Below, in pieces: positions 8,428-32,602 of a DNA stretch of 32,641 nt. This stretch comes from a virus: positions 1 through 32,641 of IMG/VR virus record IMGVR_UViG_3300028388_003028, one strand, 5' to 3'. How positions within the stretch are numbered: the first letter of the stretch is position 1; every line of letters begins with the position of its first letter. The position numbers were made by a program, and so were the translations under genes. The notes under the pieces are model-generated. The model saw only the letters and a program-made list of their open reading frames with translations, ran no database searches and was not told the DNA's origin.

Positions 8428-8890
8428 CAACCTCATGTGGACGGCCTATCTCGGCGACGAGATCGCTCACGACCTCATCTGCCGCGCCGACCTGGTCGAC
8501 ACATCGACGGACGTCGGCAAGCTGCTGGCCATCAAGCTCACGCAGAAGGCGACCGCTAGGATGCTGCAAGTCTGCCGCCCGGCCGACTACGAGTGGATAA
8601 CTCATACCAACCACGAAAACTACAGGCGCATTGCCGGTGCCAAATACATCTACCGGCAGGACACCAGCAAGGTCGTGCGCGAATCCCGCCATCCTGCCAG
8701 CGCATCGCCGTCGTACTGGCGAGACCGTCGCCGTCGGAAACTCATGACGCGCGCGGAGCGCCGCCTCGAGCGGACATGGGCCGAGGTGCGGGCAATGGAC
8801 CGTCTCGACGCTGCGCGCGCCTACGGGTCGCACAGGCGCTACACGGACGCGACCGACAGGACGCGGTTCGACATCAACTACGAGTGGTAG
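8420..8890 (+). CDS. Hypothetical early protein (156 aa)
   Basis: GGGAGG lies about 9 bases before the ATG, which overlaps the previous gene. The first half is mixed helix/strand (MSNNLMWTAYLGDEIAHDLI, later ADYEWITHTNHENY). The second half is strongly basic and helical (SYWRDRRRRKLMTRAERRLE), as in proteins that contact nucleic acid. I do not recognise a family. It lies between the Sak4-like ATPase and small membrane proteins in the early operon. Confidence 0.6.
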   Translation: MSNNLMWTAYLGDEIAHDLICRADLVDTSTDVGKLLAIKLTQKATARMLQVCRPADYEWITHTNHENYRRIAGAKYIYRQDTSKVVRESRHPASASPSYWRDRRRRKLMTRAERRLERTWAEVRAMDRLDAARAYGSHRRYTDATDRTRFDINYEW

Positions 8891-8965
8891 AGGTCGTGCC
8901 GGGCGGCGGTGTGGCAATCACGCCGCGACACAAGGGCTGCCGCCCGGCTAACAGATGGAGCCGAC

Positions 8966-9121
8966 ATGAAGTACCAACAGGCACCGCTGATCAAACACAT
9001 CCCCGACACAATCACAATCACGGCAACCTACATTGTCGCAAGTCTTTTCAGCGCAGGTTTTTGGATCATTATCTTCAAGTTGTTCTTCAACCTGGTCACT
9101 GGCGGGAAGGTCGAGTTGTGA
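8966..9121 (+). CDS. Single-pass small membrane protein (51 aa)
   Basis: The ATG at 8966 follows GGAG with a 6-base gap; the frame is open further upstream but without an SD. After a short polar start (MKYQQAPLIKHIPDTIT), residues about 17-42 are hydrophobic (TATYIVASLFSAGFWIIIFK), then a short polar end. It has no family that I recognise. The next gene overlaps it as GTGA and also encodes a membrane protein, so the two may form a pair. Confidence 0.55.
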   Translation: MKYQQAPLIKHIPDTITITATYIVASLFSAGFWIIIFKLFFNLVTGGKVEL

Positions 9122-9249
9122 GCGCCTGGAGCGGCCTAGAGGCTGCCGCTTTCTGGTGCGTGTTCGCTGGGGCCTGCATGATCGCCATGGCCGGGTTCCT
9201 GGGACTGATGCGCGCCATCTCCTGGCTGATCGGGAGGCTGCCGCGATGA
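9118..9249 (+). CDS. Single-pass small membrane protein (43 aa)
   Basis: The GTG overlaps the previous stop (GTGA), and its own stop overlaps the next ATG (CGATGA). The product is a single hydrophobic helix, residues about 9-30 (AAAFWCVFAGACMIAMAGFL), followed by a basic end (RAISWLIGRLPR). Tight coupling on both sides supports a real gene. No function can be assigned. Small membrane proteins in early phage operons often modify the host envelope or block other phages, but nothing here shows that directly. Confidence 0.5.
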   Translation: MSAWSGLEAAAFWCVFAGACMIAMAGFLGLMRAISWLIGRLPR

Positions 9250-9545
9250 CGCAGTCTGAACGCGTCCTTCAGTACCTGAGACAACACGGGACCATCACGC
9301 AGGACCAGGCAGACCGCCAGCTCGGCATCCGTCGCCTGGCCGCACGTATTCACGACCTTCGGGCCGACGGTCATGAGATCGAGGCAGACCAGGTCGAGGT
9401 GCGCAACCGATACGGCGAGATTTGCAGGATCGCCAGCTACAGCCTGACGGCCGCTCTGGACCGGGACGACATGGGATCGCCGGAGCCGGAGCGGCCTGAC
9501 GGGCTGCTGTTCGACACGCAGAAGTACATCGCAAGCCATGGCTGA
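9246..9545 (+). CDS. Winged-helix DNA-binding protein (99 aa)
   Basis: The ATG overlaps the previous TGA. Residues about 3-70 form a compact winged helix of a kind widespread in phages: SERVLQYLRQHGTITQDQAD, then LGIRRLAARIHDLRADGHEI, where ITQDQADRQLGIRRLAARI is the helix-turn-helix, and the wing ends with YGEICRIASYSL. Such proteins are thought to regulate early or middle genes. The last 30 residues are a polar tail (DDMGSPEPERPDGLLFDTQK). Position in the early operon fits a regulator. Confidence 0.7.
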   Translation: MTQSERVLQYLRQHGTITQDQADRQLGIRRLAARIHDLRADGHEIEADQVEVRNRYGEICRIASYSLTAALDRDDMGSPEPERPDGLLFDTQKYIASHG

Positions 9546-9594
9546 CGTGCATGGCTGTATTCCAGGACCGAAACCAAGAGCAAGGAGCAGAATC

Positions 9595-9867
9595 ATGAAC
9601 ATCAAGACCATTCGCAACGGCTGGGGCATTCTCGTCATCGAGCATGGCAATGTTATCTACGGACACTACGAGATCAGTGACGACGACGACATGATCACCG
9701 TTAAGGACGGCAAGGTGATCCGCCGCTGGGGGACTGAGCGCGGCTTGGGCGAGCTGGCTGCCAATGGTCCTCGTCCCGATACCGTTCTGGACCCCCTCAA
9801 CCGTGACACCTGGGTCAGTAAGAAGTCGCTGATCTTCGTGATCGACTGTGAGCCCGAGCAATGGTAG
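9595..9867 (+). CDS. Conserved phage-type hypothetical protein (90 aa)
   Basis: The ATG at 9595 follows AAGGAG (9582-9587) with a 7-base gap; an ATG at 9538 has no SD. The product is beta-rich (IKTIRNGWGILVIEHGNVIY) with an acidic turn (EISDDDDMITVKDGKVIRRW), then GTERGLGELAANGPRPDTVLDP, then FVIDCEPEQW at the end. A 'WGT..GLG.LA..GP...T.LDP' pattern followed by an IDC ending recurs in small phage proteins of unknown role. The TGG-TAG end overlaps the ATG of the next, glycine-rich, ORF in an ATGGTAG junction. Confidence 0.6.
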   Translation: MNIKTIRNGWGILVIEHGNVIYGHYEISDDDDMITVKDGKVIRRWGTERGLGELAANGPRPDTVLDPLNRDTWVSKKSLIFVIDCEPEQW

Positions 9868-9977
9868 GCGACAGCAATGGCGATGGCTGGGGCGATAGCT
9901 GGGGCGATGACTATGGCTGTGGCTGTGGCGATGGCGATGGCTGTGGCCATGGCGATTGTGAGTCCGGGCAATGGTAG
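9861..9977 (+). CDS. Glycine-rich repeat ORF 1 (38 aa)
   Basis: The ATG is embedded in the last codons of the upstream gene (ATGGTAG). The product is almost a pure alternation of glycine with D, W, N, S, Y or C, starting MVGDSNGDGWGDSWGDDYGC, and ends HGDCESGQW. That ending copies the CEPEQW end of the upstream protein, and the next ORF starts in the same ATGGTAG context. Nearly every second codon is GGC. Proteins of this make-up occur in phage early regions, but their role is unknown. It could instead be simple-sequence DNA that happens to be open. Confidence 0.4.
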   Translation: MVGDSNGDGWGDSWGDDYGCGCGDGDGCGHGDCESGQW

Positions 9978-10160
9978 CGGAAGACAAGAGCTACTGTGAC
10001 TACAGCTATGGCTATGGCTGGGTCGATGGCCATGGCAATAGCTATGGATCTGGCGATGGCCATGGCACTGGCTGTGGCTTTGGCAATGGCAGTGGCTATG
10101 ACAATGGCTGTGGCGATGGCTTTGGCAATGGCAATGGCTGGGGCGATGGCTATAGCTAAT
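9868..10160. repeat. Degenerate GGC-N-A-T simple-sequence tract
   Basis: About 290 bases of imperfect repeats built from GGCGAT, GGCAAT, GGCTGT and GGCTAT hexamers. The tract contains the two glycine-rich ORFs. From 10160 to 10234 the sequence is ordinary and I see no gene in it, only the AAGGGAAGG SD region of the replication initiator. Confidence 0.8.
9971..10159 (+). CDS. Glycine-rich repeat ORF 2 (62 aa)
   Basis: Starts at an ATG overlapping the stop of glycine-rich ORF 1 (ATGGTAG). After MVAEDKSYCDYSYGYGWVDG it continues as alternating glycine with D, N, H, S, C, Y, F and W (residues 14-61), with GGCAATGGC and GGCGATGGC units dominating the DNA. The 14 or so aromatic residues among glycines resemble low-complexity, phase-separating or strand-forming sequences. 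The two other plus-strand frames and the minus strand also stay open because of the repeat, so coding status rests on the coupled starts and regular codon pattern. Confidence 0.45.
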   Translation: MVAEDKSYCDYSYGYGWVDGHGNSYGSGDGHGTGCGFGNGSGYDNGCGDGFGNGNGWGDGYS

Positions 10161-10234
10161 CGCACGGTAGCGCGAATACGCGGCAGGCACGTAGAAACTA
10201 GCAACCAGTAAGGGCAGCGAAGGGAAGGCCAGGG

Positions 10235-11092
10235 ATGGCCAGATCATCTTTACACCGGCGCGACATAGGGCCGGGATACTGGGACAACGAGGACTTGGTC
10301 GAGCTGGGGTCGTTCGCGCGGCTGCTGTTCATGGCCATGTGGTGCCAGGCCGACCGAGAGGGCCGCCTGGAGGACCGGCCGAAGCGCATACGGCTCAAAG
10401 CCAACATGCTCGACATCGACTCAGGCCAGGCTGAGGACATCGTGGCCGCCCTCGCAGATCACGGTTTCGTGATCCGATACGAGGTCGACGGAGTCCGATA
10501 TCTCCAAATCACCAACTTTTCAAAGCATCAGAAGGTCCACCCAAGGGAGCGCCCAAGCGAGATCCCGCCGGCTCTAAGTGAAACAGGCGCGCCTAGGGCT
10601 AACCCTGGGCAAACCCTAGGCGAACCCAAGGCGAGCCCTAGGCAAACCCAGGGCGAACCTAGGTCTGCCGAGGGTGAGACTTTCCCGTCTGGGCCTTCTG
10701 GGCCTTCTGGGCCTTCTGGAGTAAGAGATGTTGTTGACGCGCGCGCGCAAGCCGAGGTTGTGCCATTTGACCCAGCCGTTCCGAGAGTTGGAATATCAGC
10801 CGGTCTACCTCCAGAAGCGGCCAGCCTCACCTGCGTCCAGGACGCCACGGAAAAGCAGTTGGAAGAACTCGCTCGCCTGGGTGAGGTGACCGGCGTGCCT
10901 CCCGGCGACCTGCTAGCCGAGACGGCACACAAAACGTGGACCAAGCGGTCAGCCAGCGTCGTCATCGAACGATACGCTGACATCATCGCTTCAAAGCGAT
11001 CTCCAAAGACATTCCTCGACCAGAAGCTTCAGAGCACCGACGAGGCGTTCGCCGCCGTGATGCAAAGGATGCACAGTGGAAGCAACCAATGA
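10235..11092 (+). CDS. Replication initiator, O/DnaD-like, with internal origin repeats (285 aa)
   Basis: The ATG follows a purine-rich AAGGGAAGG. Residues about 1-100 (RDIGPGYWDNEDLVELGSFA, LLFMAMWCQADREGRLEDRP) are the winged-helix N-terminal domain typical of phage replication initiators and replisome organisers. Residues about 105-165 are a repetitive linker (ANPGQTLGEPK, ASPRQTQGEPR, then three SGP units). The C-terminal part is helical (TEKQLEELARLGEVTGVPPG, IERYADIIASKRSPKTFLDQ), which would contact the helicase or its loader. The linker DNA forms an 11-bp direct-repeat array, as the lambda O gene holds its own origin. The loader candidate follows, overlapping by 17 bases. Whether it is an O or DnaD relative cannot be settled here. 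Confidence 0.7.
   Translation: MARSSLHRRDIGPGYWDNEDLVELGSFARLLFMAMWCQADREGRLEDRPKRIRLKANMLDIDSGQAEDIVAALADHGFVIRYEVDGVRYLQITNFSKHQKVHPRERPSEIPPALSETGAPRANPGQTLGEPKASPRQTQGEPRSAEGETFPSGPSGPSGPSGVRDVVDARAQAEVVPFDPAVPRVGISAGLPPEAASLTCVQDATEKQLEELARLGEVTGVPPGDLLAETAHKTWTKRSASVVIERYADIIASKRSPKTFLDQKLQSTDEAFAAVMQRMHSGSNQ
10590..10666 (+). repeat. ori: Seven 11-bp iterons inside the initiator gene (candidate origin)
   Basis: Seven imperfect direct repeats with period 11: units at 10590, 10601, 10612, 10623, 10634, 10645 and 10656, consensus AACCCTAGGCG. The unit core CCTAGG is self-complementary, so each could bind a dimer. The 11-base period is close to the helical turn and places every unit on one face. 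The encoded linker repeats as 11 residues (33 bp), so protein and DNA repeats are in register. Iterons within the initiator gene are the lambda-family origin arrangement. Confidence 0.65.
10688..10720 (+). repeat. Three and a half TCTGGGCCT repeats
   Basis: TCTGGGCCT occurs three times in tandem (10688-10714) followed by TCTGGA. It encodes SGP units in the initiator linker and lies 22 bases after the iterons. It may be part of the origin or simple repeat-driven linker length variation. Confidence 0.75.
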
Positions 11093-11501
11093 CGACCTGA
11101 TCCTGATGGCCATCCGCAAGGCACAGCGCGCCAGGATGATCGAGCTGACAGCCGAGGCCATCGACCAGTACGCGTACGCATTCCAGGGCACGGACGCCGA
11201 GAAGATCGACCGGGCGTTCACCTCACTATTCGCCCGAGAGGACTCGAGGTCGTGGCCGTCCCCTCGCGCGGTACTCGACGAGGTCAACAAGCAGGCCACC
11301 AAGAAACCCGCGCTGGTAGAGCCGGACCTAGACCTGGTCGACCGCGACTTTGGAAAGGCTATCTCGCCGATGGTCAGCCAGTACCTACGAGGAGAGATCA
11401 GCAGCGAGGAGATGGACCAGGCGATGGTATCGATAGCTAGGGCGTGCGGAGCCTATGACCGAATCAAGGGTCAGCCTGGGCTGAGGATGGCGGCGCTGTG
11501 A
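11076..11501 (+). CDS. Helicase-loader candidate (141 aa)
   Basis: The start is GTG at 11076, inside the end of the initiator gene, with AAGGA about seven bases upstream. The product is helical: RKAQRARMIELTAEAIDQYA, then a segment with a tryptophan and prolines (SRSWPSPRAVLDEVNK) resembling the 'W...FP.....' end of the first domain in phage loaders of the G39P/lambda-P kind. A second helical region (KAISPMVSQYLRGEISSEEM) follows. No Walker motif is present, so it would be a non-ATPase loader. The assignment rests on position after the initiator and on this pattern. Confidence 0.45.
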   Translation: MEATNDDLILMAIRKAQRARMIELTAEAIDQYAYAFQGTDAEKIDRAFTSLFAREDSRSWPSPRAVLDEVNKQATKKPALVEPDLDLVDRDFGKAISPMVSQYLRGEISSEEMDQAMVSIARACGAYDRIKGQPGLRMAAL

Positions 11502-11839
11502 TACGCCACGTGCTGCCATACCCGCCCAGCGTCAACAGGTACTACCGCACCTACCAGGGCCGGATGCTCATCAGCCGCGAAGGGCGACAGTACAGGTCCG
11601 ACGTCCAGCTCGCACTGCTCGGGTCGCCGACCGTCGCCGGGCGCTGCTCCGTAGAGATCCACGTCTGGCCGCCAGACCGCCGCAAGCGCGATTTGGACAA
11701 CGTGCTCAAGGCGACCTTGGACGCCCTCGAGCACGCTGGCGCCATCGAGGACGACGGGCTCATCGACGAGCTGCGGATCGTGCGCGAGGAACCGCTGCCG
11801 GCTGGCCGCCTGGTCGTCGAGATCCGGGAGGCGGCATGA
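11498..11839 (+). CDS. rusA: RusA-type Holliday-junction resolvase (113 aa)
   Basis: The GTG overlaps the previous stop (GTGA). The N-terminal PPSVNRYY motif and the catalytic stretch DRRKRDLDN with D65 and D67, followed by LKATLDAL, an EHAG turn and EDD near residue 84-86, match the RusA family throughout. RusA is a small dimeric endonuclease that resolves branched DNA, and phages use it to clear junctions before packaging. Length is normal. It lies with the replication genes, which fits. Confidence 0.9.
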   Translation: MIRHVLPYPPSVNRYYRTYQGRMLISREGRQYRSDVQLALLGSPTVAGRCSVEIHVWPPDRRKRDLDNVLKATLDALEHAGAIEDDGLIDELRIVREEPLPAGRLVVEIREAA

Positions 11840-12021
11840 AAGCCAACGACCATATCAAGGCCATGCTCGACCAGCTCGACAAAGCCGAGCGCGAAATCAA
11901 CATAATCAAAGAACGCGCATCCCGTTACGAGGAAGAAACGATGCACTGGCGGCGGGTCGTGGCCGGCCTGCTATCCGAAAACACCAAGCTGAGGAACAAG
12001 CTAAATGCCAAGTCTTCGTGA
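11836..12021 (+). CDS. Coiled-coil hypothetical protein (61 aa)
   Basis: The ATG overlaps the RusA stop as ATGA. The whole product is predicted helical with heptad-like spacing: HIKAMLDQLDKAEREINIIK, then VVAGLLSENTKLRNKLNAKS. It has the look of a short coiled-coil dimer. No family is recognised. It overlaps the next gene by 17 bases. It might be a scaffold or regulator within the early operon. Confidence 0.6.
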   Translation: MKANDHIKAMLDQLDKAEREINIIKERASRYEEETMHWRRVVAGLLSENTKLRNKLNAKSS

Positions 12022-12511
12022 ATTGATTGCGGCGCACCAGCGGTGGCTGGACCAGGTCGAGGCGGACACGGGAGCCGGCCCGAAGATCAGGCGACCGAAA
12101 AGCAAACATCCGAAAAAAAGAAGCGCGTGCTCGGTATGCGGCGTGGAGGTTTACGCCGAGCTGCTGACGCACGTCAACGGTGGCGGCATGGCGTGCAGAA
12201 ATTGTTACGAGCGCGCCATCAATGTCGACCGCATAAAGGCGTCTGATGGGTTCCGCGTCGTCATGCGGTGGTGGGGCGAGGAGTCCATGACGTTGACGTT
12301 CGCGGAGGCCGTGGACGACGCCATAGACGATGGTCGACTGTTGGACGATGGCACGCCCAACGACGCCCACCGGTGCGAGGTGTGCGGCATCGCGTGTCGA
12401 TCTGCAATCGAGGCTAGTCAATGCTGTCCAGGTGCGACACCTGGGGGCGGCAGCCTCGACTGGCGCGGCATCGGTAAGGCGCTGGATTTCATATGCCAGG
12501 ACGGTGAGTGA
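12005..12511 (+). CDS. Zinc-ribbon hypothetical protein (168 aa)
   Basis: Starts with ATG inside the end of the coiled-coil gene. Two cysteine clusters are visible: CSVC at about residue 42 paired with CRNC near 64, and CEVC near 124 paired with a CRS/CC pair near 130-140. These fit one or two treble-clef or zinc-ribbon units that bind metal. The lysine/arginine stretch before the first cluster (RRPKSKHPKKRS) suggests nucleic-acid contact. It is an early gene of unknown role. Confidence 0.6.
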   Translation: MPSLRELIAAHQRWLDQVEADTGAGPKIRRPKSKHPKKRSACSVCGVEVYAELLTHVNGGGMACRNCYERAINVDRIKASDGFRVVMRWWGEESMTLTFAEAVDDAIDDGRLLDDGTPNDAHRCEVCGIACRSAIEASQCCPGATPGGGSLDWRGIGKALDFICQDGE

Positions 12512-12699
12512 TCGGTGAACGCGGAAGTGGCCGCCCGAGGTCCACAACTGCTTACGGCTACGCCGTCGAATCACGCACCGGCGACCTGTTCCAGCCGTGG
12601 CGAGAGGTCAGCCGGTGGAAGACCTGGGACGACGCCTACGCGGACCTGATGGAGCGTAGGGACAACGGCCATACTGTGAGGGTAGTGGAGCATGGATAG
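12508..12699 (+). CDS. Hypothetical protein (63 aa)
   Basis: The start is GTG overlapping the previous TGA (GTGA). The product reads like a small alpha/beta unit (TTAYGYAVESRTGDLFQPWR, then WKTWDDAYADLMERRDNGHT). I do not recognise it. Coupled to both neighbours. Confidence 0.5.
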   Translation: MIGERGSGRPRSTTAYGYAVESRTGDLFQPWREVSRWKTWDDAYADLMERRDNGHTVRVVEHG

Positions 12700-12784
12700 C
12701 ACCGTGGCTTGGATATTCGGACTGCTGACGGTTCTCGTCCTGGTATTCCTTTTGGGGCACTTCGCTGACGAAAGGAATCATTGA
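12692..12784 (+). CDS. Micro membrane protein (30 aa)
   Basis: The ATG overlaps the end of the previous gene and lies shortly after GGAG. The product MDSTVAWIFGLLTVLVLVFL followed by LGHFADERNH is one membrane helix with a polar end, 30 residues in all. It ends at TGA 12782-12784. A short hydrophobic ORF placed tightly after another gene and before a strongly signalled start is plausible, but its size limits confidence. Confidence 0.45.
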   Translation: MDSTVAWIFGLLTVLVLVFLLGHFADERNH

Positions 12785-12827
12785 ATGGACGAGGCGAATC
12801 GTGAAAAGCGACCGCTCAATGAGTAAC

Positions 12828-12836
12828 CATGGAGGG
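12828..12836 (+). promoter_or_regulatory. CATGGAGGG translation-initiation element (copy 2)
   Basis: Ends 6 bases before the ATG at 12843 and decides that start over the upstream GTG 12801 and ATG 12819, which lack an SD. Confidence 0.6.
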
Positions 12837-12842
12837 TTCGGG

Positions 12843-13082
12843 ATGCTGCGACATTGCCTAGATCAAAAGGACTACGAGACGGTCAGAGCTGCCGTCCTGC
12901 GATACGAGCAGGCCGAGGGCATCGGACACGCAGACGTTGCCGTTATGTGCAAGCTCTCGCACCACAGCGTCAAGGACTTCATTCGCGGGAAGAGCAACAG
13001 TTGCCGCATTGTCGCCCACCTGGTCGCGTACCTCCCCCTCGAGCTGCGCTTCACACCGCCAGTAATTGATGTGGAGTCGTAA
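12843..13082 (+). CDS. Hypothetical HTH-like protein before terminase (79 aa)
   Basis: The start is set by CATGGAGGG six bases upstream. The product has a helical half (CLDQKDYETVRAAVLRYEQA) and a segment AMCKLSHHSVKDFIRGKSNS-like (VAVMCKLSHHSVKDFIRGKS) that has helix-turn-helix spacing, with 'LSHHSVKDF' as possible recognition helix, then HLVAYLPLELRF. This resembles small phage DNA-binding proteins and late-gene regulators. Position immediately ahead of the packaging genes fits a late regulator, but this is inferred. Confidence 0.5.
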   Translation: MLRHCLDQKDYETVRAAVLRYEQAEGIGHADVAVMCKLSHHSVKDFIRGKSNSCRIVAHLVAYLPLELRFTPPVIDVES

Positions 13083-13133
13083 ACAGAGGAACAATTCCAC
13101 TGCGGCCAGGCGTATGTTCCACTCCGGGCGGCA

Positions 13134-13147
13134 GTAATGGATTACTT
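13134..13147. other. AGTAAT-GG-ATTACT palindrome before terS (packaging-site candidate)
   Basis: The 76-base gap 13083-13158 between the early genes and terS holds two direct copies of TTCCACT (13096-13102 and 13128-13134 region) and a 6-bp perfect inverted repeat around GG. Cos and pac sites often lie just upstream of terS. No mature end can be seen in the sequence, so this is only a candidate; a late promoter is the alternative. Confidence 0.25.
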
Positions 13148-13158
13148 GCGCGTCAAGG

Positions 13159-13596
13159 ATGACGCACCGTCAATACGCTAGCAAGCTGTCGCCCAAACAG
13201 CTTATGGCAAAAGGGTTGACACCACAACAGCGATACTTCGCGGCCGAGGTGGCAACGGGCAAGTGTACCCTCGCCGAGGCCGCCATCCGCGCCGGTTACT
13301 CTCCGAGGACTGCCAACTCCCAAGGGTCACAGCTCCTAGATAATCCTAAGATTGCCGCGGAGGTCAATCGCATCCAGGCCAAGGCCGAGGTGCAAGCTGT
13401 TGGAAGTAAAGCAGAAGCGCTGAACGCCATCTGGCAGATCGCCGAGGATGCACGCGCGAACTCGGCCAGGCGCGATGCTCTCGCTGCCTACGAGCTATGG
13501 ATGAAGGCGCGCGGCGAGCTGGTCGAGAAGCGAGAGATCGAGCAGACCAGTACGGTCATCGAAATCGAGTGGCAACCGGCGGGTGGTCCGAACTGA
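13159..13596 (+). CDS. terS: Terminase small subunit (145 aa)
   Basis: The DNA-recognition half of the packaging motor. Residues about 18-60 carry the Terminase_2 pattern: LTPQQRYFAAEVATGKCTLA, then AAIRAGYSPRTANSQGSQLL, where EAAIRAGYSPRTANSQ is the helix-turn-helix. A central helix (VNRIQAKAEVQAVGSKAEAL) forms the oligomerisation stem, and the C-terminus (EIEWQPAGGPN) would touch the large subunit. The large subunit follows with a TGATG overlap. Length and layout are normal for the family. Confidence 0.85.
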   Translation: MTHRQYASKLSPKQLMAKGLTPQQRYFAAEVATGKCTLAEAAIRAGYSPRTANSQGSQLLDNPKIAAEVNRIQAKAEVQAVGSKAEALNAIWQIAEDARANSARRDALAAYELWMKARGELVEKREIEQTSTVIEIEWQPAGGPN

Positions 13597-14831
13597 TGAA
13601 TCTGCGTATGCCGCGCCTGCACCCGCTGCAGGACGAGATTCGCCTCCATCCTGCCCGCTTCAAGGTCGTGTCTTGCGGCCGCCGGTTTGGGAAGACGACG
13701 CTAGCCGTTGCGGTGATCTTCGCCTGCGCTGCCCAAGGTGGCGCGGCCTGGTGGGTCGGGCCTACCTCGCGCGAGGCCAAGATCGGATGGAGATACTTGC
13801 GCCAGATGGCGTCTCCCATTCCGGGAGTTACGGTCGCAGAGTCCGTCAAGGAGATCCATTTCCCCGGTGGCGGATGGCTAGCCGTCCTGTCGGCCGAGTC
13901 TGCTACGCTGCGTGGCGAGGGCCTGGACCTGGTCGTCATCGATGAGGCCTCGTTTCTGTACGACCTCGAGCGAGTTTGGAACTACGACCTGCGCGCCGCG
14001 CTGTCTGATCGGCAGGGCTCGGCCATGTTTATCAGCTCGCCCGATGGCCGTAATTACTTCTACAAGCTCTACCAGCTAGGCCAGGACGACGAGCATCCCG
14101 ACTGGGCGTCATGGCAGGCAACCAGTTACGACAATCCGTACCTGGACAAAGACGAGATCGACGCGGCGAGGGAGTTGCTTCCCGATTGGGTATTCCGCCA
14201 GGAATACCTGGCGGAGTTTATTTCGTTTGCCGGAAAGGTCTACAAGACCTTTACGCCAGAGTGCGATGCCGTCTTTACCTGGGCGGACGCTAGCCATTAC
14301 GGCGAAGCGTGGGGCGGCATCGACTTTGGCTTCAAAAATCCGACGGTGGCGTGCGTTGGCGCGCTAGATCGCGACGACCGGCTAGACGTAGTGGACGGCG
14401 TCTACGAGTCCGGGCTTACGACCAGCGATTTGATCCCGATCCTACGCGGCCTACAGGACCGCTGGCGGGTGGTCCGCTGGTTCGCTGACCCTGCCGAGCC
14501 CAAGACTATCCGCGAACTGTGCAACGCTGGGCTGCCGGTCGTCGCTGCGCCACGGATCAAGGGCGACCTCGATCGTAGCTATATCCGCTACGGCATCATG
14601 AAGGTAGAGACACGACTGATCAACGGAAGGTTGCGTGTCGCCGCAGATCAGGTGCCAGCAGACTTCATCCTCGAGCTCGACTCGTACCGCTATCCTGACG
14701 CCAAGGCCGGCACCGAGCCTAAAGAGGTGCCGCTGAAGGTAGACGACCATTTCCCCGACGCGCTGAGGTATATGGTGGTCGGGCTCGATGACATGCGCGG
14801 ACGGCAACCCAAAATAATGGTGGCCTCATGA
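13596..14831 (+). CDS. terL: Terminase large subunit (411 aa)
   Basis: The start is the ATG at 13596 overlapping the terS stop; upstream extension in the frame lies over terS and is not used. The ATPase half has Walker A CGRRFGKTT (residues 27-35), Walker B LDLVVIDEAS (110-119 with catalytic E117) and a coupling motif near ISSPDG (147-151). The nuclease half has the RNase H-like acidic triad: D243 in GIDFGFKNP, D298 in FADPAEP and D384/D388 in DDHFPDALRY. It pumps DNA into the prohead and cuts concatemers. All key residues are present. It is followed by the portal with a 4-base overlap. Confidence 0.95.
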   Translation: MNLRMPRLHPLQDEIRLHPARFKVVSCGRRFGKTTLAVAVIFACAAQGGAAWWVGPTSREAKIGWRYLRQMASPIPGVTVAESVKEIHFPGGGWLAVLSAESATLRGEGLDLVVIDEASFLYDLERVWNYDLRAALSDRQGSAMFISSPDGRNYFYKLYQLGQDDEHPDWASWQATSYDNPYLDKDEIDAARELLPDWVFRQEYLAEFISFAGKVYKTFTPECDAVFTWADASHYGEAWGGIDFGFKNPTVACVGALDRDDRLDVVDGVYESGLTTSDLIPILRGLQDRWRVVRWFADPAEPKTIRELCNAGLPVVAAPRIKGDLDRSYIRYGIMKVETRLINGRLRVAADQVPADFILELDSYRYPDAKAGTEPKEVPLKVDDHFPDALRYMVVGLDDMRGRQPKIMVAS

Positions 14832-27065: not shown

Positions 27066-27074
27066 CATGGAGGG
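27066..27074 (+). promoter_or_regulatory. CATGGAGGG translation-initiation element (copy 4)
   Basis: Ends 7 bases before the ATG at 27082. Here the internal ATG (27067) is in frame with the gene and would add five residues MEGLT; the SD spacing favours 27082. Confidence 0.6.
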
Positions 27075-27081
27075 CTTGACC

Positions 27082-27402
27082 ATGTACCGCTTTATCATCG
27101 TTGCCGCGATACTTCTCGGCTCGGCCATTGCTCTGGCGGCCACGTCTGACGAGGTCGTGACCGAGGCTACCGAGATCAACGTCGTGGGCCGTACCGGCGC
27201 GTCTGTGCTCGCTGACGGCGGCTCTGCAATCGTGCTGCTGACGTCATGGGACGCTACGGCTGGCGACCGCGACACGGTGCAGGTCCGTTACGTGCGCGAC
27301 CTGGTGCCCCGTGAGCTGTTCTGGTCGCCCGCATGGGACAAGGTGGACACGCTCACGGTCGTGCCGACCGGCGCTGATACCGTCATCGTGACGTTGCACT
27401 AG
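27082..27402 (+). CDS. Small exported protein with Sec signal peptide (106 aa)
   Basis: From ATG 27082 the product begins MYRFIIVAAILLGSAIALAA, a textbook signal peptide: short basic start, hydrophobic core and a small-residue ALA-A cleavage site before TSDEV. The mature part is beta-rich (GASVLADGGSAIVLLTSWDA, DTVQVRYVRDLVPRELFWSP, DTLTVVPTGADTVIVTLH). No lipobox. It is the first of four adjacent exported-type genes that follow the baseplate genes. Small beta proteins of this size can act as adaptors. I do not recognise a family, and an export signal is unexpected at this position in a phage. Confidence 0.65.
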   Translation: MYRFIIVAAILLGSAIALAATSDEVVTEATEINVVGRTGASVLADGGSAIVLLTSWDATAGDRDTVQVRYVRDLVPRELFWSPAWDKVDTLTVVPTGADTVIVTLH

Positions 27403-27416
27403 CGCGAGGGGTCGAC

Positions 27417-28919
27417 ATGCGCCGGATCGCCTTGCTCGCTCTGATCGTTATTGCGCTCGCCGCGTTGATCGTCGGCGCTGGCGATCCGTACCCATCGAAA
27501 TCGCAGACTTATGGCGGCAAGAGTTACCCGCGCATCCGGTCGTCATTCGACTATGCGCGCGCATCTTGTACGGTAGCAGCAGAAGCCGACGACCCAGTGC
27601 TGACCGTCAAGACCAAACAAAAGACCGCGCATACCGTCAGACTGGATGCTGCGTATCTGACCGGACCTGGTGGCGGCGGACCAGTGTCTCGGACGGTTGT
27701 TTGGGGAGACTCGACTAGCAGCCTCAAGAAGTACAGCCAGACGATAGACCTCGCGACGATCGCCGGCGATTGGTCCTACTACACCGACGACACTATCCAG
27801 GTATGGGTGCGGGTCGACGGCGAGCTGGCGATGACTCGCAAGTTTGTGCCGATCGAGGACGTAACTCCGCCCGTGATCGCCTCGTTCACGGCCGATGCTC
27901 CCGACTCGACCGGTGCTGACGGCAACTGGCAGCTTGACGTGGCGTTCTCGGCCGACGAGAGCGGCGAGGCGGTAGTCAAGTTCGCGACGTCGGTCGGCGG
28001 CCTGGCATCTGCCGACACGGTGGTTCTGGGCACCGACATTAGCAGCTACGACGGTCCGCGAGATACAGGGATCTCACTTGATGCGCTGAACGCCGGTACG
28101 GTGTACGTGAGCCTGGTGGTTACCGACGACTCGGGCAACGCCAGCAGCACGTCGAACGATACGCAAGCGGTCACGCGCCAGGCGGACACGACACCGCCTA
28201 CTCTCACCTTTGTCTCGATCACCTACGACGAGGGCACCGAGACGGTCACCGGCAACGTGACTGGCGACGAGCCCTGGTACGCATCCTACCGCCACCGCTA
28301 CGATACCGACCCGTGGTCTACCGCCGCTGTAGGCGACACGCTCGCGTCTGACCAGACGGTAGTCGTAGACGTCTCTGGCGCGGCTGATGACACGGTGGTC
28401 GAGATCGAGGTAGGCGGAGACGATGAGCTAGGCAACTCCGCTACGCCGGTCTCTGATACCGTCACGGTAGTGCGCGGGTCTGGTGCGCCCAGCGCGCCTA
28501 CCGGCCTCGTAGCGACGATCAGCAACGATGTCGAGGCTCCCGACAAGCCGACCGGTGAGAGCGCCGTGGCTGGCACCGGCGAGATCGCTGTGACCTGGGA
28601 CGCGAACACCGAGCCTGACCTGAGCCACTATTACGTCTACAGGGGTACGACTAGCGGCAGCCTCACGAAGCTCCCAATGTCGCTGCTGACGGCAGAGTAC
28701 GACGATACGGATCTGGTGGATGGCGTGACGTACTACTACGCGATCACTGCCGTTGACGATAAATATAATGAATCAGTGCAATCTGACGAGACCAGCGCGG
28801 TGGCGGTCGTGGCTGACACGACGCCGCCTGCCGCGCCGACCGGGCTAGCGGCTACGATTAGCGGCGACACTACCCCGCCTGATGCTCCGACTGGGCTGAC
28901 GGCTACAACGCAGGAGTAA
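27417..28919 (+). CDS. Exported FN3-repeat protein (500 aa)
   Basis: Starts MRRIALLALIVIALAALIVG with a likely cut after VGA, and an SD GAGGGG. The mature protein is a string of beta domains: residues about 25-140 unassigned beta; an Ig-like domain from TPPVIASFTADAPDSTGADG; another from TPPTLTFVSITYDEGTETVT; and FN3 from 'PDKPTGESAVAGTGEIAVTW' through 'SHYYVYRGTTSG' and 'VTYYYAITAVDDKYNES'. It ends in two 17-residue tandem units, DTTPPAAPTGLAATISG and DTTPPDAPTGLTATTQE. The last unit is the A-strand of a further FN3 domain that never continues; the continuation appears in the next gene. A fibre-like extracellular protein is likely. Confidence 0.65.
   Translation: MRRIALLALIVIALAALIVGAGDPYPSKSQTYGGKSYPRIRSSFDYARASCTVAAEADDPVLTVKTKQKTAHTVRLDAAYLTGPGGGGPVSRTVVWGDSTSSLKKYSQTIDLATIAGDWSYYTDDTIQVWVRVDGELAMTRKFVPIEDVTPPVIASFTADAPDSTGADGNWQLDVAFSADESGEAVVKFATSVGGLASADTVVLGTDISSYDGPRDTGISLDALNAGTVYVSLVVTDDSGNASSTSNDTQAVTRQADTTPPTLTFVSITYDEGTETVTGNVTGDEPWYASYRHRYDTDPWSTAAVGDTLASDQTVVVDVSGAADDTVVEIEVGGDDELGNSATPVSDTVTVVRGSGAPSAPTGLVATISNDVEAPDKPTGESAVAGTGEIAVTWDANTEPDLSHYYVYRGTTSGSLTKLPMSLLTAEYDDTDLVDGVTYYYAITAVDDKYNESVQSDETSAVAVVADTTPPAAPTGLAATISGDTTPPDAPTGLTATTQE
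28815..28916 (+). repeat. Two 51-bp tandem repeats at the gene end
   Basis: Unit 1 (28815-28865) and unit 2 (28866-28916) encode 17-residue units DTTPP-x-APTGL-x-AT and end exactly at the stop codon. A more diverged copy lies at about 28490-28555. The repeats are a natural site for recombination that could add or remove FN3 domains. Confidence 0.8.
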
Positions 28920-28922
28920 GAA

Positions 28923-30284
28923 ATGCGACGGACCATGACTTGCCTATTGCTCGCCGTGATGGTCGGGCTGGCGCTCGCCCAGTCGGTGACGCTGGACTGG
29001 GACGACAACATTGAGGCTGATCTCTCGCACTACATCGTCTATCGAGGTGTCGAGACTGGCGTACTCTGGCCTATGTCAGTCTATGTTCCGAGCATCGCGG
29101 AGATCCTGACCAGCACGTATGTGGACACGTCGGTGCAGACAGATTCGACGTATTACTACGCGGTCACGGCAGTGGACAATGACGACAACGAGTCGTCTGA
29201 GAGTAGCGAGATTTCGGTGACGCTGGACTTCACCGCGCCCGATACCAGCTCGTTCGCGGCGGTGGTGTTCGACACGACAAACGCAAGCAACGTCATGCTC
29301 GACCTAGCGGCGGTAGCGGACGAAGCAGCCCTTGCCTCCTGGCAGTGGCGCGAGGCCTACGACGGTACGTGGACGCCGACCAGCGACCAGTGGGTTGCGA
29401 CCGACGATCACAGCGACACGACGTTTGCGACGAGCCTGAGCGATACGATCTACACGACGCTGGCTACGTCTGCGATGGACTCGGCGCAGGTGCGGTTCCG
29501 CCTCAAAGATGCCAATCAGAATGTGTCTGACTGGTACGGGCCGTTTGATAATGAGTTTGTGAGGGAGGATGCCTCTGGCAGCCCCAAACTCTACATCATT
29601 TATAGCGACAACCACAACACGGATTCAGATAACATCACGATTAGCGACGCAGATAACGACGGCAACGGAACTATCACGTATGACACTGGCTCATATACTG
29701 GAGATTATGAGGTAATTGAATCGTCGGATTGCACATACGGCGAACTGGACCAGGGCGATCCGAACAATGCGAACACCGGCGACCAGGAAGTAAATAGTGC
29801 CGTAGGCCTGCCACACACGAGCGGCAAAAACATTCTGATGTACTTCCCGCTCGGTGGGGTCGCCGGTACGGCGTCCGTTGATTCTGCCACCGTGCTCTAC
29901 TACGGGAATGGGGGGTGGATCGATGCAGGGGACACGTTGTTTGTTTACGGGGCCGACGATTCCGACCTGGTTGAGTGGGTCGATGAGTCCGACGTTTCCT
30001 ACAATTATAGCGATGTCTCGGCCACCACGGCCTGGGGTACAGCGATCAGCACATACGACAGTTTCACCGGGACTGACTTGACGATCCTTCAGGCCGAGCG
30101 GGCACCATCTGACTGGTATCACCTGGCTGCAACAAACGCGGTAACTCGTTGGATCGACGACGGCCAGCCAAATGCTGGGTTTTGGATTGATTTGGGAACT
30201 GCCGACAACGTATCCGACTGGCATATAATCGAGAATCACTCGAACGCTAGGTCGCCAGTCCTTCTGCTGTACGTGCAGGAGTAG
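28923..30284 (+). CDS. Exported FN3 + DNRLRE-like protein (453 aa)
   Basis: AGGAG lies six bases before the ATG, at the end of the previous gene. The product begins MRRTMTCLLLAVMVGLALA with an ALA-QS cleavage site. The mature N-terminus SVTLDWDDNIEADLSHYIVY is strand B onward of an FN3 domain, lacking strand A, followed by VQTDSTYYYAVTAVDNDDNE. A middle beta region (residues about 100-240) follows. Residues about 265-450 resemble a DNRLRE/CBM-like jelly-roll: NILMYFPLGGVAGTASVDSA, LTILQAERAPSDWYHLAATN, VTRWIDDGQPNAGFWIDLGT and the final SPVLLLYVQE. Such domains bind polysaccharide or form parts of surface filaments. The gene is translationally coupled to both neighbours. Confidence 0.65.
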   Translation: MRRTMTCLLLAVMVGLALAQSVTLDWDDNIEADLSHYIVYRGVETGVLWPMSVYVPSIAEILTSTYVDTSVQTDSTYYYAVTAVDNDDNESSESSEISVTLDFTAPDTSSFAAVVFDTTNASNVMLDLAAVADEAALASWQWREAYDGTWTPTSDQWVATDDHSDTTFATSLSDTIYTTLATSAMDSAQVRFRLKDANQNVSDWYGPFDNEFVREDASGSPKLYIIYSDNHNTDSDNITISDADNDGNGTITYDTGSYTGDYEVIESSDCTYGELDQGDPNNANTGDQEVNSAVGLPHTSGKNILMYFPLGGVAGTASVDSATVLYYGNGGWIDAGDTLFVYGADDSDLVEWVDESDVSYNYSDVSATTAWGTAISTYDSFTGTDLTILQAERAPSDWYHLAATNAVTRWIDDGQPNAGFWIDLGTADNVSDWHIIENHSNARSPVLLLYVQE

Positions 30285-30286
30285 CA

Positions 30287-32602
30287 ATGAAATATATACT
30301 GACAATTGCGATCTTGATTTGTCCGCTCGTAGCGATCGGCCAGTCCTGGACGAGTATCGATGCTTTTGAAGCGTTTAGCGATACGTTCTTTACGGTTGGG
30401 CAAGACAGCCTGTACCTTGATCATTTCGGCACGTCATTTGAATTTGGCGATAGCACATGGACGGACGCTGGCCGCAATAGGTTTTCAGTCTGGACAACGA
30501 CCACTCATGATGCTGACCTGTTTGTGGCGTACGGAACGACAGACAGTTACGGCGACACGGTGTCCGGCGACGGCAACCGATACTGGACTCACCTGCGGAT
30601 CATCCCCGGCCTGACCGCGAGCACCGAATATCATTACAAGATTGTAGCCGTGTCTGCGGCCGGCGATACGATCACGACCGACGATGCGACGTTCACGACG
30701 GTCAGCGGCAGCGGATGGACCGAGGTCACGGGAACGCCGCCGCACACGCTAGATTCTGCATCGACAACTTACTATCTATCGTCGGACGTGACCGCCGACA
30801 CGAGGGCTTTCACCATCAGCGCAAGTGGTATCACGCTCGACCTCAACGGCTACACCGTAAGCTACGACAACGATACACCAGATGTCGCAGACGGATCGTC
30901 GTGGGACTCGTTCTATTATTCATCGACTGCAACTTTCGGCGTTCGGGTCGGCTCGTCTAGTGTAACGATAACCGGAGGCTATATTGTTCAGGGATCTTAC
31001 GGAGGTCAAAGTTCCGCGAACGCTATTGGGTTCAATCCGATTTTGAGTTCCGCTGCGAGCACCGCAATACAGGGCGTTGACATTACGTATTATGGCGATC
31101 AGGTGTCCGGCATATACCTGCGAGGAACCCCCGGCGGTGATGTCTATTACACGTCGATCAGTGACACTGGCACGGTAATTGACAACCGGCACCAGGGCGT
31201 GGCGGCGGCCGAGGGCGACAACGGTATCGGCTATTACGGCGTCCTAGTGAAACGTGCTCGCCAGCAAGGCCTTATGTCCTCAAGTGGTGCGGAAAAATGC
31301 GAGGTCCGTGCAGATTCGTGGGCAACAAACTCGTTTTCCATTGCGCCCCAGAGGAACTCGGTTACGTATGACAACATTTTAATGGGCACTGGTTATCATA
31401 ATGTAGGCGGCGGTTGGGCTTTGATTGACGACTGCGATTCGCTGGTTGTGCGAAAGAATTTTGTTCACGTTGTGGCGCAAGAACCCAGCAACAGAAGCGA
31501 CGAGTATTCAACTCATGCCAGCGCCAACGGTATGCGGCTGACGCAGTACAGCGGCAGCAGCTATAACTATAACAATTACCTATACGAGTACAATACGATC
31601 CTGGCACAAGGACGGGATGCACCGGACCAGTTGCGCGGCACACAGTTCTTCTCGGGCGCGTATGTGAGCAACCTGCGTTTCAGGCACAATACCGTGAAGG
31701 TTGACATGCTGGACGATAGCGCCCCGACCTTCGGCGGGTGTGTCCATCTGCACGGCGGGTCGAACACGCCGGCGCTGCCGGTCTTATATTCCGACAACAC
31801 GTTTATCACTGACCTTCGGCACATCACCAGCAACGACAATTACGCCGGTGGTGGCCACCATCGTTTTGTTGACAACATCTTCCGCAAGATCGAAGACCGG
31901 GCTGATTATAACACCATCAAGCTCGGCTATTGGGTTTACGATTCCCCAGGCAACGAACTGTTTGATAACTACTTCTGGGGCGGCGCTGGCCCTGAAGACA
32001 ATAATTTCGACAACGCAAATTCCGAGGCCGAGAACTCGTATTATTATGGCCATACCTCCTGGTTCCGATTGGAAGACGGCAATGGTGTCTTGGCCAACGA
32101 GCCGGTAACGATGACGACCGCACAGGGCTACAGCTACACCGACACTACCGACGCCGGCGGGCTAGTGCGCCTGGATTTGTGCGACTGGGATTATACTGAG
32201 CCAGCGGGATCAACAACAGAATCCAAGACCGACCACAACGGCTGGATGATTCACTTCAACTCCGACTCAGTCGCCGTATCTGATGCCGATACGGCTGTCA
32301 GCAATACCAGCCTAACACCGCTGGTCTACACGATAGCGGGCTCTGGCGGCCAGGTGTCCGAGTTTTCGGTCTCTTCCGCCACCCGCACCGACGGCAACGC
32401 AGTGCTCGCCTGGAGCGATACCGGTGCCGACTCCTACCAGGTCCAGATCGACGCCAGTGGTGTGACGATCTACCACGCTACAACGACCGGCACGACGATC
32501 ACCATCCCCGACGTGGACCTCGGCGCGCTGGACGTTACGGTCTGGCCGATCACCAGCGGCGAGCAGGGGACACCGGCACGAACGCAGATAGCAGCGCAGT
32601 AG
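30287..32602 (+). CDS. Exported beta-helix protein with flanking FN3-like domains (771 aa)
   Basis: AGGAG lies five bases before the ATG and overlaps the previous stop. The N-terminus MKYILTIAILICPLVAIGQS is a signal peptide with an AIG-QS cut site. Residues about 40-140 contain an FN3-like domain (LRIIPGLTASTEYHYKIVAV). Residues about 160-560 show the repeating strand pattern of a right-handed parallel beta-helix (pectin-lyase fold): 'FTISASGITLDLNGYTVSYD', 'SSVTITGGYIVQGSYGG', 'CDSLVVRKNFVHVVAQEPSN', and 'NYLYEYNTILAQGRDAPDQ'. The last about 85 residues are another FN3-like unit (AVLAWSDTGADSYQVQIDAS). Beta-helices with such caps are typical of tail spikes and surface adhesins. The gene runs across the circle junction into the glycosidase-like gene. 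Confidence 0.7.
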   Translation: MKYILTIAILICPLVAIGQSWTSIDAFEAFSDTFFTVGQDSLYLDHFGTSFEFGDSTWTDAGRNRFSVWTTTTHDADLFVAYGTTDSYGDTVSGDGNRYWTHLRIIPGLTASTEYHYKIVAVSAAGDTITTDDATFTTVSGSGWTEVTGTPPHTLDSASTTYYLSSDVTADTRAFTISASGITLDLNGYTVSYDNDTPDVADGSSWDSFYYSSTATFGVRVGSSSVTITGGYIVQGSYGGQSSANAIGFNPILSSAASTAIQGVDITYYGDQVSGIYLRGTPGGDVYYTSISDTGTVIDNRHQGVAAAEGDNGIGYYGVLVKRARQQGLMSSSGAEKCEVRADSWATNSFSIAPQRNSVTYDNILMGTGYHNVGGGWALIDDCDSLVVRKNFVHVVAQEPSNRSDEYSTHASANGMRLTQYSGSSYNYNNYLYEYNTILAQGRDAPDQLRGTQFFSGAYVSNLRFRHNTVKVDMLDDSAPTFGGCVHLHGGSNTPALPVLYSDNTFITDLRHITSNDNYAGGGHHRFVDNIFRKIEDRADYNTIKLGYWVYDSPGNELFDNYFWGGAGPEDNNFDNANSEAENSYYYGHTSWFRLEDGNGVLANEPVTMTTAQGYSYTDTTDAGGLVRLDLCDWDYTEPAGSTTESKTDHNGWMIHFNSDSVAVSDADTAVSNTSLTPLVYTIAGSGGQVSEFSVSSATRTDGNAVLAWSDTGADSYQVQIDASGVTIYHATTTGTTITIPDVDLGALDVTVWPITSGEQGTPARTQIAAQ

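Follow-up and report, generated by a model that had tools for sequence, protein, structure and literature searches.

An FN3 domain apparently divided between two adjacent genes downstream of phage tail genes, and the frequent absence of strand A behind signal-peptide-like starts

Results

Two adjacent genes carry sequences that read as the two parts of one FN3 domain

The DNA analyzed here, referred to as the window, is the whole 32,641-base stretch of the IMG/VR virus record IMGVR_UViG_3300028388_003028. A scan of its proteins named terminase, portal, capsid and tail-tube genes, and its last four genes (27067, 27417, 28923 and 30287) lie downstream of the tail genes. Gene 27417 (27417-28919, + strand) encodes a modular, putatively exported protein of 500 aa with the signal-peptide-like N-terminus MRRIALLALIVIALAALIVGAG; gene 28923 (28923-30284, + strand) encodes a second modular and putatively exported protein, of 453 aa. 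The C-terminus of protein 27417 (...VADTTPPAAPTGLAATISGDTTPPDAPTGLTATTQE) is an FN3 A-strand stub immediately followed by the stop codon. Protein 28923 begins with MRRTMTCLLLAVMVGLALA and continues, after a cleavage site placed by eye, with QSVTLDWDDNIEADLSHYIVYRG, strand B of its FN3 domain (QSVTLDWDD) coming directly after the signal-like segment. An earlier note on this DNA had started from these two ends; the reading frames, together with the alignment in the case of 28923, bear out both that 27417 stops after an A strand with nothing behind it and that 28923 opens at strand B behind a signal-like segment.

The two genes share a frame, in which the junction reads CAG GAG TAA GAA ATG with GAA separating stop and start. 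The Shine-Dalgarno-like site of gene 28923, AGGAG (28912-28916, + strand), lies within the last codons of the stub. The start of gene 30287 is preceded in the same manner by CAGGAGTAG, and genes 28923 and 30287 each begin just after CAGGAGTA(A/G) (28899-28923 and 30263-30287); in both cases the stretch encoding the final residues of the upstream protein, QE, is also the ribosome-binding site.

Protein 27417 holds one complete FN3 domain and three orphan A-like segments, that is, segments with no B strand behind them. The complete domain (28578-28826, + strand), an HMM match, comprises strands B to G, preceded by an A-like segment of its own, and it matched Pfam fn3 at E 2.1e-4 with 21.9 bits, under the cut-off of 25. 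An extra A-strand-like segment identified by eye (APSAPTGLVATISN, about 28485-28526, + strand) leads into a further A-like segment instead of a strand B. The other two orphans result from a doubling of the terminal stub: the first, DTTPPAAPTGLAATISG (28815-28865, + strand), and the second and terminal one, DTTPPDAPTGLTATTQE (28866-28916, + strand), are 51-nt copies with 35 of 51 bases identical.

In protein 28923, the signal-peptide-like segment MRRTMTCLLLAVMVGLALA (28923-28979, + strand; simple heuristic) is followed by an FN3 domain without strand A (28980-29222, + strand). The B to G core of this domain is present and matched the HMM with 80.6 bits, the domain itself being among the HMM seeds; strand A, needed for the seven-stranded form, is missing in cis. 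The domain is 41% identical to the FN3 domain of 27417, and Pfam fn3 gave no match to it at E up to 1. Alignments delimit a second beta-rich module (DTSSFAAVVF...WQWR..., 29226-29567, + strand), which is common to a related phage, L034, and a DNRLRE-like C-terminal module (29763-30230, + strand) matched NCBIfam NF033679 at E 2.1e-5 with 24.6 bits, under the curated cut-off of 34. The signal segment of 28923 was also considered as a copy of the 27417 start. The local DNA alignment of the two scored 30, a score reached in none of 2000 codon shuffles and in 6 of 2000 when the first three codons were fixed; with 21 pairs examined, this amounts to a weak hint and the idea was not retained.

Signal-peptide-like starts follow the tail genes in two phages

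By a simple rule of charge, hydrophobicity and small residues, signal-peptide-like starts are present in the last four genes of the window and in three genes of L034 (IMGVR_UViG_3300028595_000041), and they are common to the matching genes of both phages. The same rule called 4 other ORFs among the 43 listed for the window, which were judged false by eye. In both phages the signal-like genes are consecutive and located behind the tail genes (four at 27067-32602 in the window, three at 9305-15582 in L034), and nearly all other ORFs are without such starts. It is unusual for a phage to have exported proteins in the tail-fibre position. Large proteins that open with signal-like segments, as seen by eye, also occur at 8529-14289 of another uncultured virus record, L036. 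According to the part of the source consulted, the target proteins of phage DGRs are without detectable signal peptides (PMC6199706).

In a joined model the terminal stub fits the open position of the 28923 domain

The earlier note had held that the two protein ends, once joined, read as one FN3 domain, and the alignment agrees. The read-through of 28800-29240 was aligned with 33 FN3 domains (32 from other loci and the other FN3 domain of the window); it contains a full strand A and full strands B to G, and the signal segment appears as an insertion of about 21 residues in the A-B loop. AlphaFold2 modelling of 28803-29240 gave a mean pLDDT of 79.7. In the model, the second stub forms a strand (residues 30-38, pLDDT about 89-93) docked in the A position, the signal segment is a low-confidence loop (pLDDT about 55-63) and the first stub is unstructured (pLDDT about 55-65). 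With VIA-align, the model resembled complete FN3 domains over residues 22-146, one example being 4o00, a titin FN3 (Z 13.2, rmsd 2.5, 98 aligned; residues 23-145). Donor-strand partners are expected to combine an incomplete fold with a complementary strand that a candidate partner has to spare, and this combination was found here with the two parts joined covalently. As the model is a covalent join, based on an alignment in which A and B to G are already paired, the predicted structure demonstrates fit, and not that two separate exported chains meet or bind.

The closest relative carries a single gene

L034 was the only close relative found, with 63% identity in gene 25780. It carries one gene of 1572 aa that matches parts of both 27417 and 28923: residues 1-181 of 27417 correspond to residues 1-188 of the L034 protein (44% identity, E 7e-37), and residues 66-234 of 28923 to its residues 1029-1203 (56% identity, E 8e-55). 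At the HMM threshold used, no FN3 match was obtained in L034. The homologue with both proteins as one gene, which the earlier note had proposed to look for, was found in that a single gene spans both, although it gave no FN3 match at the junction; the cut can therefore not be placed there, and a split in the window and a fusion in L034 are both compatible with the comparison.

Searches for further relatives returned little. Close relatives of 28923 were found neither in viral contigs nor in phage records, relatives of gene 25780 were limited to L034 in viral contigs with none in genome contigs, and a search with alignment A3 returned the L034 contig alone. The portal search gave distant known phages only, and the small protein L012 (see below) had no match in phage records. 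L036 was rejected as a relative, its similarity being 30% over a short stretch and its tail region different. A DNA pattern combining a PTGL-stub gene end, a stop and a start was found in at least 120 stretches. Among the 80 loci listed, 37 cases were in frame, and by eye none of them was set in an FN3 A strand; with some codons fixed by the pattern, this is a weak negative. Among the matches listed, no second phage had the exact arrangement of 27417 and 28923.

FN3 domains directly behind signal-like starts usually lack strand A

We surveyed strand A in FN3 domains of other loci. A search with 27417 gave 31 viral loci. In the next round, 17 small proteins served as queries and gave 42 viral loci, many of them on contigs already found, and 67 genome loci. 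FN3 loci were found by patterns such as WDANTEPD and by an HMM whose seeds included the domains of the window itself; duplicates among viral loci were removed by identical core, only the + strand was considered and matches starting above profile position 10 were dropped, which left 199 distinct FN3 domains. When the first FN3 domain lies behind a signal-peptide-like start, strand A was absent in 45 of 49 cases, and in 2 of the 4 exceptions (L090 and L053) the motif matches, by eye, within the signal itself. Strand A was present in 87 of 90 internal domains. The rest comprised 46 first domains with A and no signal and 14 with neither. Under looser rules, 112 ORFs included 47 that were signal-bearing and A-less and 52 with A. 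Judged from these sequences, an FN3 domain that directly follows a signal peptide in this kind of protein is usually A-less, so that the missing strand does not point to a partner.

Pairing of a donor with an acceptor in the neighboring gene was not conserved. The upstream gene ended in an A-like motif for 1 of 28 viral A-less proteins, L021, where the motif is not FN3-like by eye and the match is regarded as spurious, and in L034 the region belongs to a single gene; the upstream ORFs were mechanical longest reading frames, some of which are surely not genes. In addition, AlphaFold2 modelling of the mature form of L012, an A-less relative, predicted with a mean pLDDT of 91.5 a six-stranded sandwich in which the tail is not a strand; this model aligned to FN3 chains over residues 1-82. 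The earlier note had named folding of the mature 28923 domain without the extra strand as an observation against donation, and such folding is what the model predicts for L012.

Many small FN3 proteins of a putatively exported type begin at strand B

Small FN3 proteins of 110-150 aa with signal-like starts, and hence of a putatively exported type, are present in many phage contigs. A-less members (L006, L007, L008, L011, L012, L014-L019, L021, L025, L026, L028 and L029) come from diverse phage contigs, and many of these proteins have an A-like or amphipathic C-terminal tail. An A-like motif was found at the end of 13 of 21 small viral A-less proteins (shuffled tails: mean 4.7, maximum 11 in 2000 trials). 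From their sequences, the small proteins resemble units that run from B to G and close with A, and their tails may be either leftovers of tandem arrays or donors for a neighboring copy. This wider pattern, in which many small phage FN3 proteins of the exported type begin at strand B and most of those scored carry an A-like tail, is the new element of the analysis. The neighborhood of the small genes indicates no single function: 20 chosen neighbor ORFs included terminase, DNA polymerase, helicase and neck or adaptor proteins, and many were unmatched. A natural two-domain version is found at 5602-6336 of L024, with a signal, an A-less FN3 domain, a linker, a second FN3 domain and the spare A-like tail CPPEPPTGVIVVITPI.

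Discussion

The pair probably represents a modular exported gene of the tail region that was split or shuffled at the A/B boundary, and not a strand-donating system. The far end of this phage tail-gene region would encode exported proteins made of shuffled beta-sandwich modules, in which FN3 units are dealt in the phase B-C-C'-E-F-G-then-A. With this phase, a start behind a signal peptide falls at strand B, and a protein that stops after a unit ends with a spare A strand. Gene 28923 would most likely derive from a longer modular gene, like that of L034, through a split or a re-joining between strands A and B; the final codons of the spare stub would then have become its ribosome-binding site, and the added signal peptide would have given 28923 its own route through Sec. 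The first FN3 domain of mature 28923 is probably a six-stranded sandwich without A, a form predicted here for L012 only, and the stub of 27417 would be a left-over linker. That the proteins are exported, that a gene was split and that no partner is involved are inferences.

Support for a split or shuffled gene comes from the common frame, from the relative with one gene and from how regularly A is missing behind signal-like starts, and the ratio of three A-like segments to one complete FN3 domain in 27417 fits repeated shuffling at the A/B boundary. The 28 viral upstream genes, the predicted fold of L012, the signal-like starts common to matching genes of both phages and the AGGAG within the stub codons count for it as well. 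Other observations count against it. The joined FN3 domain is very good in frame, loop length and docking of the stub, beyond the minimum for unrelated ends; the single close relative is without the FN3 region and so fits either direction of change; and among the matches listed there is no second phage with this arrangement. The earlier note had offered, as one of two explanations, that a stop, a start and a signal were inserted into a domain. The common frame, the loop length and the single gene of L034 are compatible with such an insertion, which is a candidate explanation only, L034 having given no FN3 match at the junction.

A different reading of the small proteins is homotypic exchange, in which exported FN3 subunits with an A-less start and an A-like tail chain head to tail and the pair in the window is a multidomain version. 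We consider this unlikely. The excess of A-like tails over shuffled tails and the L012 tail, which is no strand of its own domain in the model, agree with it, but leftovers of tandem FN3 arrays would appear identical, the motif is absent from 8 of 21 tails, and those of L008, L014, L015, L018 and L028 run, by eye, into hydrophobic or amphipathic stretches. In its general form, the proposal is that exported phage FN3 proteins are a strand-donating system. Each mature protein would begin at strand B with its A position open and have a spare A strand at its end or behind it, and copies or neighbors, 27417 and 28923 among them, would chain head to tail outside the cell with no need of a chaperone, usher or protease. 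This form has an equally small chance of being right.

The other explanation of the earlier note, in which the stub at the end of 27417 would occupy the vacant A position of mature 28923 beyond the cytoplasm and so join the two proteins non-covalently, is improbable. The docked strand and its match to a titin FN3 make donation physically possible, and FN3 domains that lack or swap N-terminal strands can associate: anastellin, an FN3 fragment without strands A and B, self-associates according to the part of the source consulted (PMC2671840), and 4m6a is, by its title, an A-strand swapped FN3 scaffold. Anastellin is a recombinant fragment and 4m6a a designed scaffold, whereas the phage proteins are natural. 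Against donation, the model is a covalent read-through from a pre-paired alignment, only one of the two stubs of 27417 could be docked, the other being unstructured, and the sole relative holds the region in one gene. Specific support is lacking, since 45 of 49 FN3 domains behind signal-like starts are without A and the 28 viral cases gave no convincing upstream stub. The observation of the earlier note was right; its strand-donation reading of the pair finds no support beyond physical fit. The doubling of the stub, the AGGAG within it, the prevalence of A-less starts behind signal peptides and the single gene of L034 had escaped that note.

Chaperone-usher pilins likewise present an incomplete Ig-type fold beside a protein with a spare strand. 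There, strand G is the one that is missing and an N-terminal strand is donated, whereas here strand A is missing and the candidate donor is C-terminal. Two partly overlapping scans of window proteins, with 10 in each and covering part of the ORFs, named no chaperone, usher or processing protease. Type V pilins (FimA, Mfa1) resemble the phage pair in that a subunit is open on its N-terminal side and a candidate donor lies at a C-terminus; in the part of the source consulted, strand exchange is proposed for them and protease processing is required before polymerization (PMC5954841). Here, in contrast, the gene product itself comes without the strand, and a protease step is not implied. In sequence pattern, predicted fold and mosaic tandem use, the domains resemble the FN3 modules found in surface and tail proteins of bacteria and phages (PF00041; PHROG 11445, minor tail protein), from which they differ in the A-less first domain behind a signal-like start and in the spare A strands at the C-terminus. 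Judged by titles and abstract openings, literature searches gave no account of A-less exported phage FN3 proteins or of FN3 strand donation in phages.

Read-through or re-initiation might yield a certain amount of a 27417-28923 fusion in which the signal segment forms an internal loop, in keeping with the continuous frame across TAA GAA ATG and the predicted folding of the joined segment. This is very improbable: the good Shine-Dalgarno-like site and the complete signal-peptide-like start fit a separate gene, and a hydrophobic segment inside an exported protein would tend to stop transfer. An assembly or sequencing error within a single gene, for which the single-gene relative L034 and nothing else speaks, can practically be discounted, as an error would not generate an in-frame ribosome-binding site, a start codon and a signal-peptide-like segment.

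Even if only shuffling of a modular gene is involved, the results correct an easy misreading, that of a missing strand A as the sign of a partner. Strand exchange is directly testable with the small proteins L012 and L007, and if it were true, phages would own a minimal means of assembling FN3 units into surface chains without chaperones.
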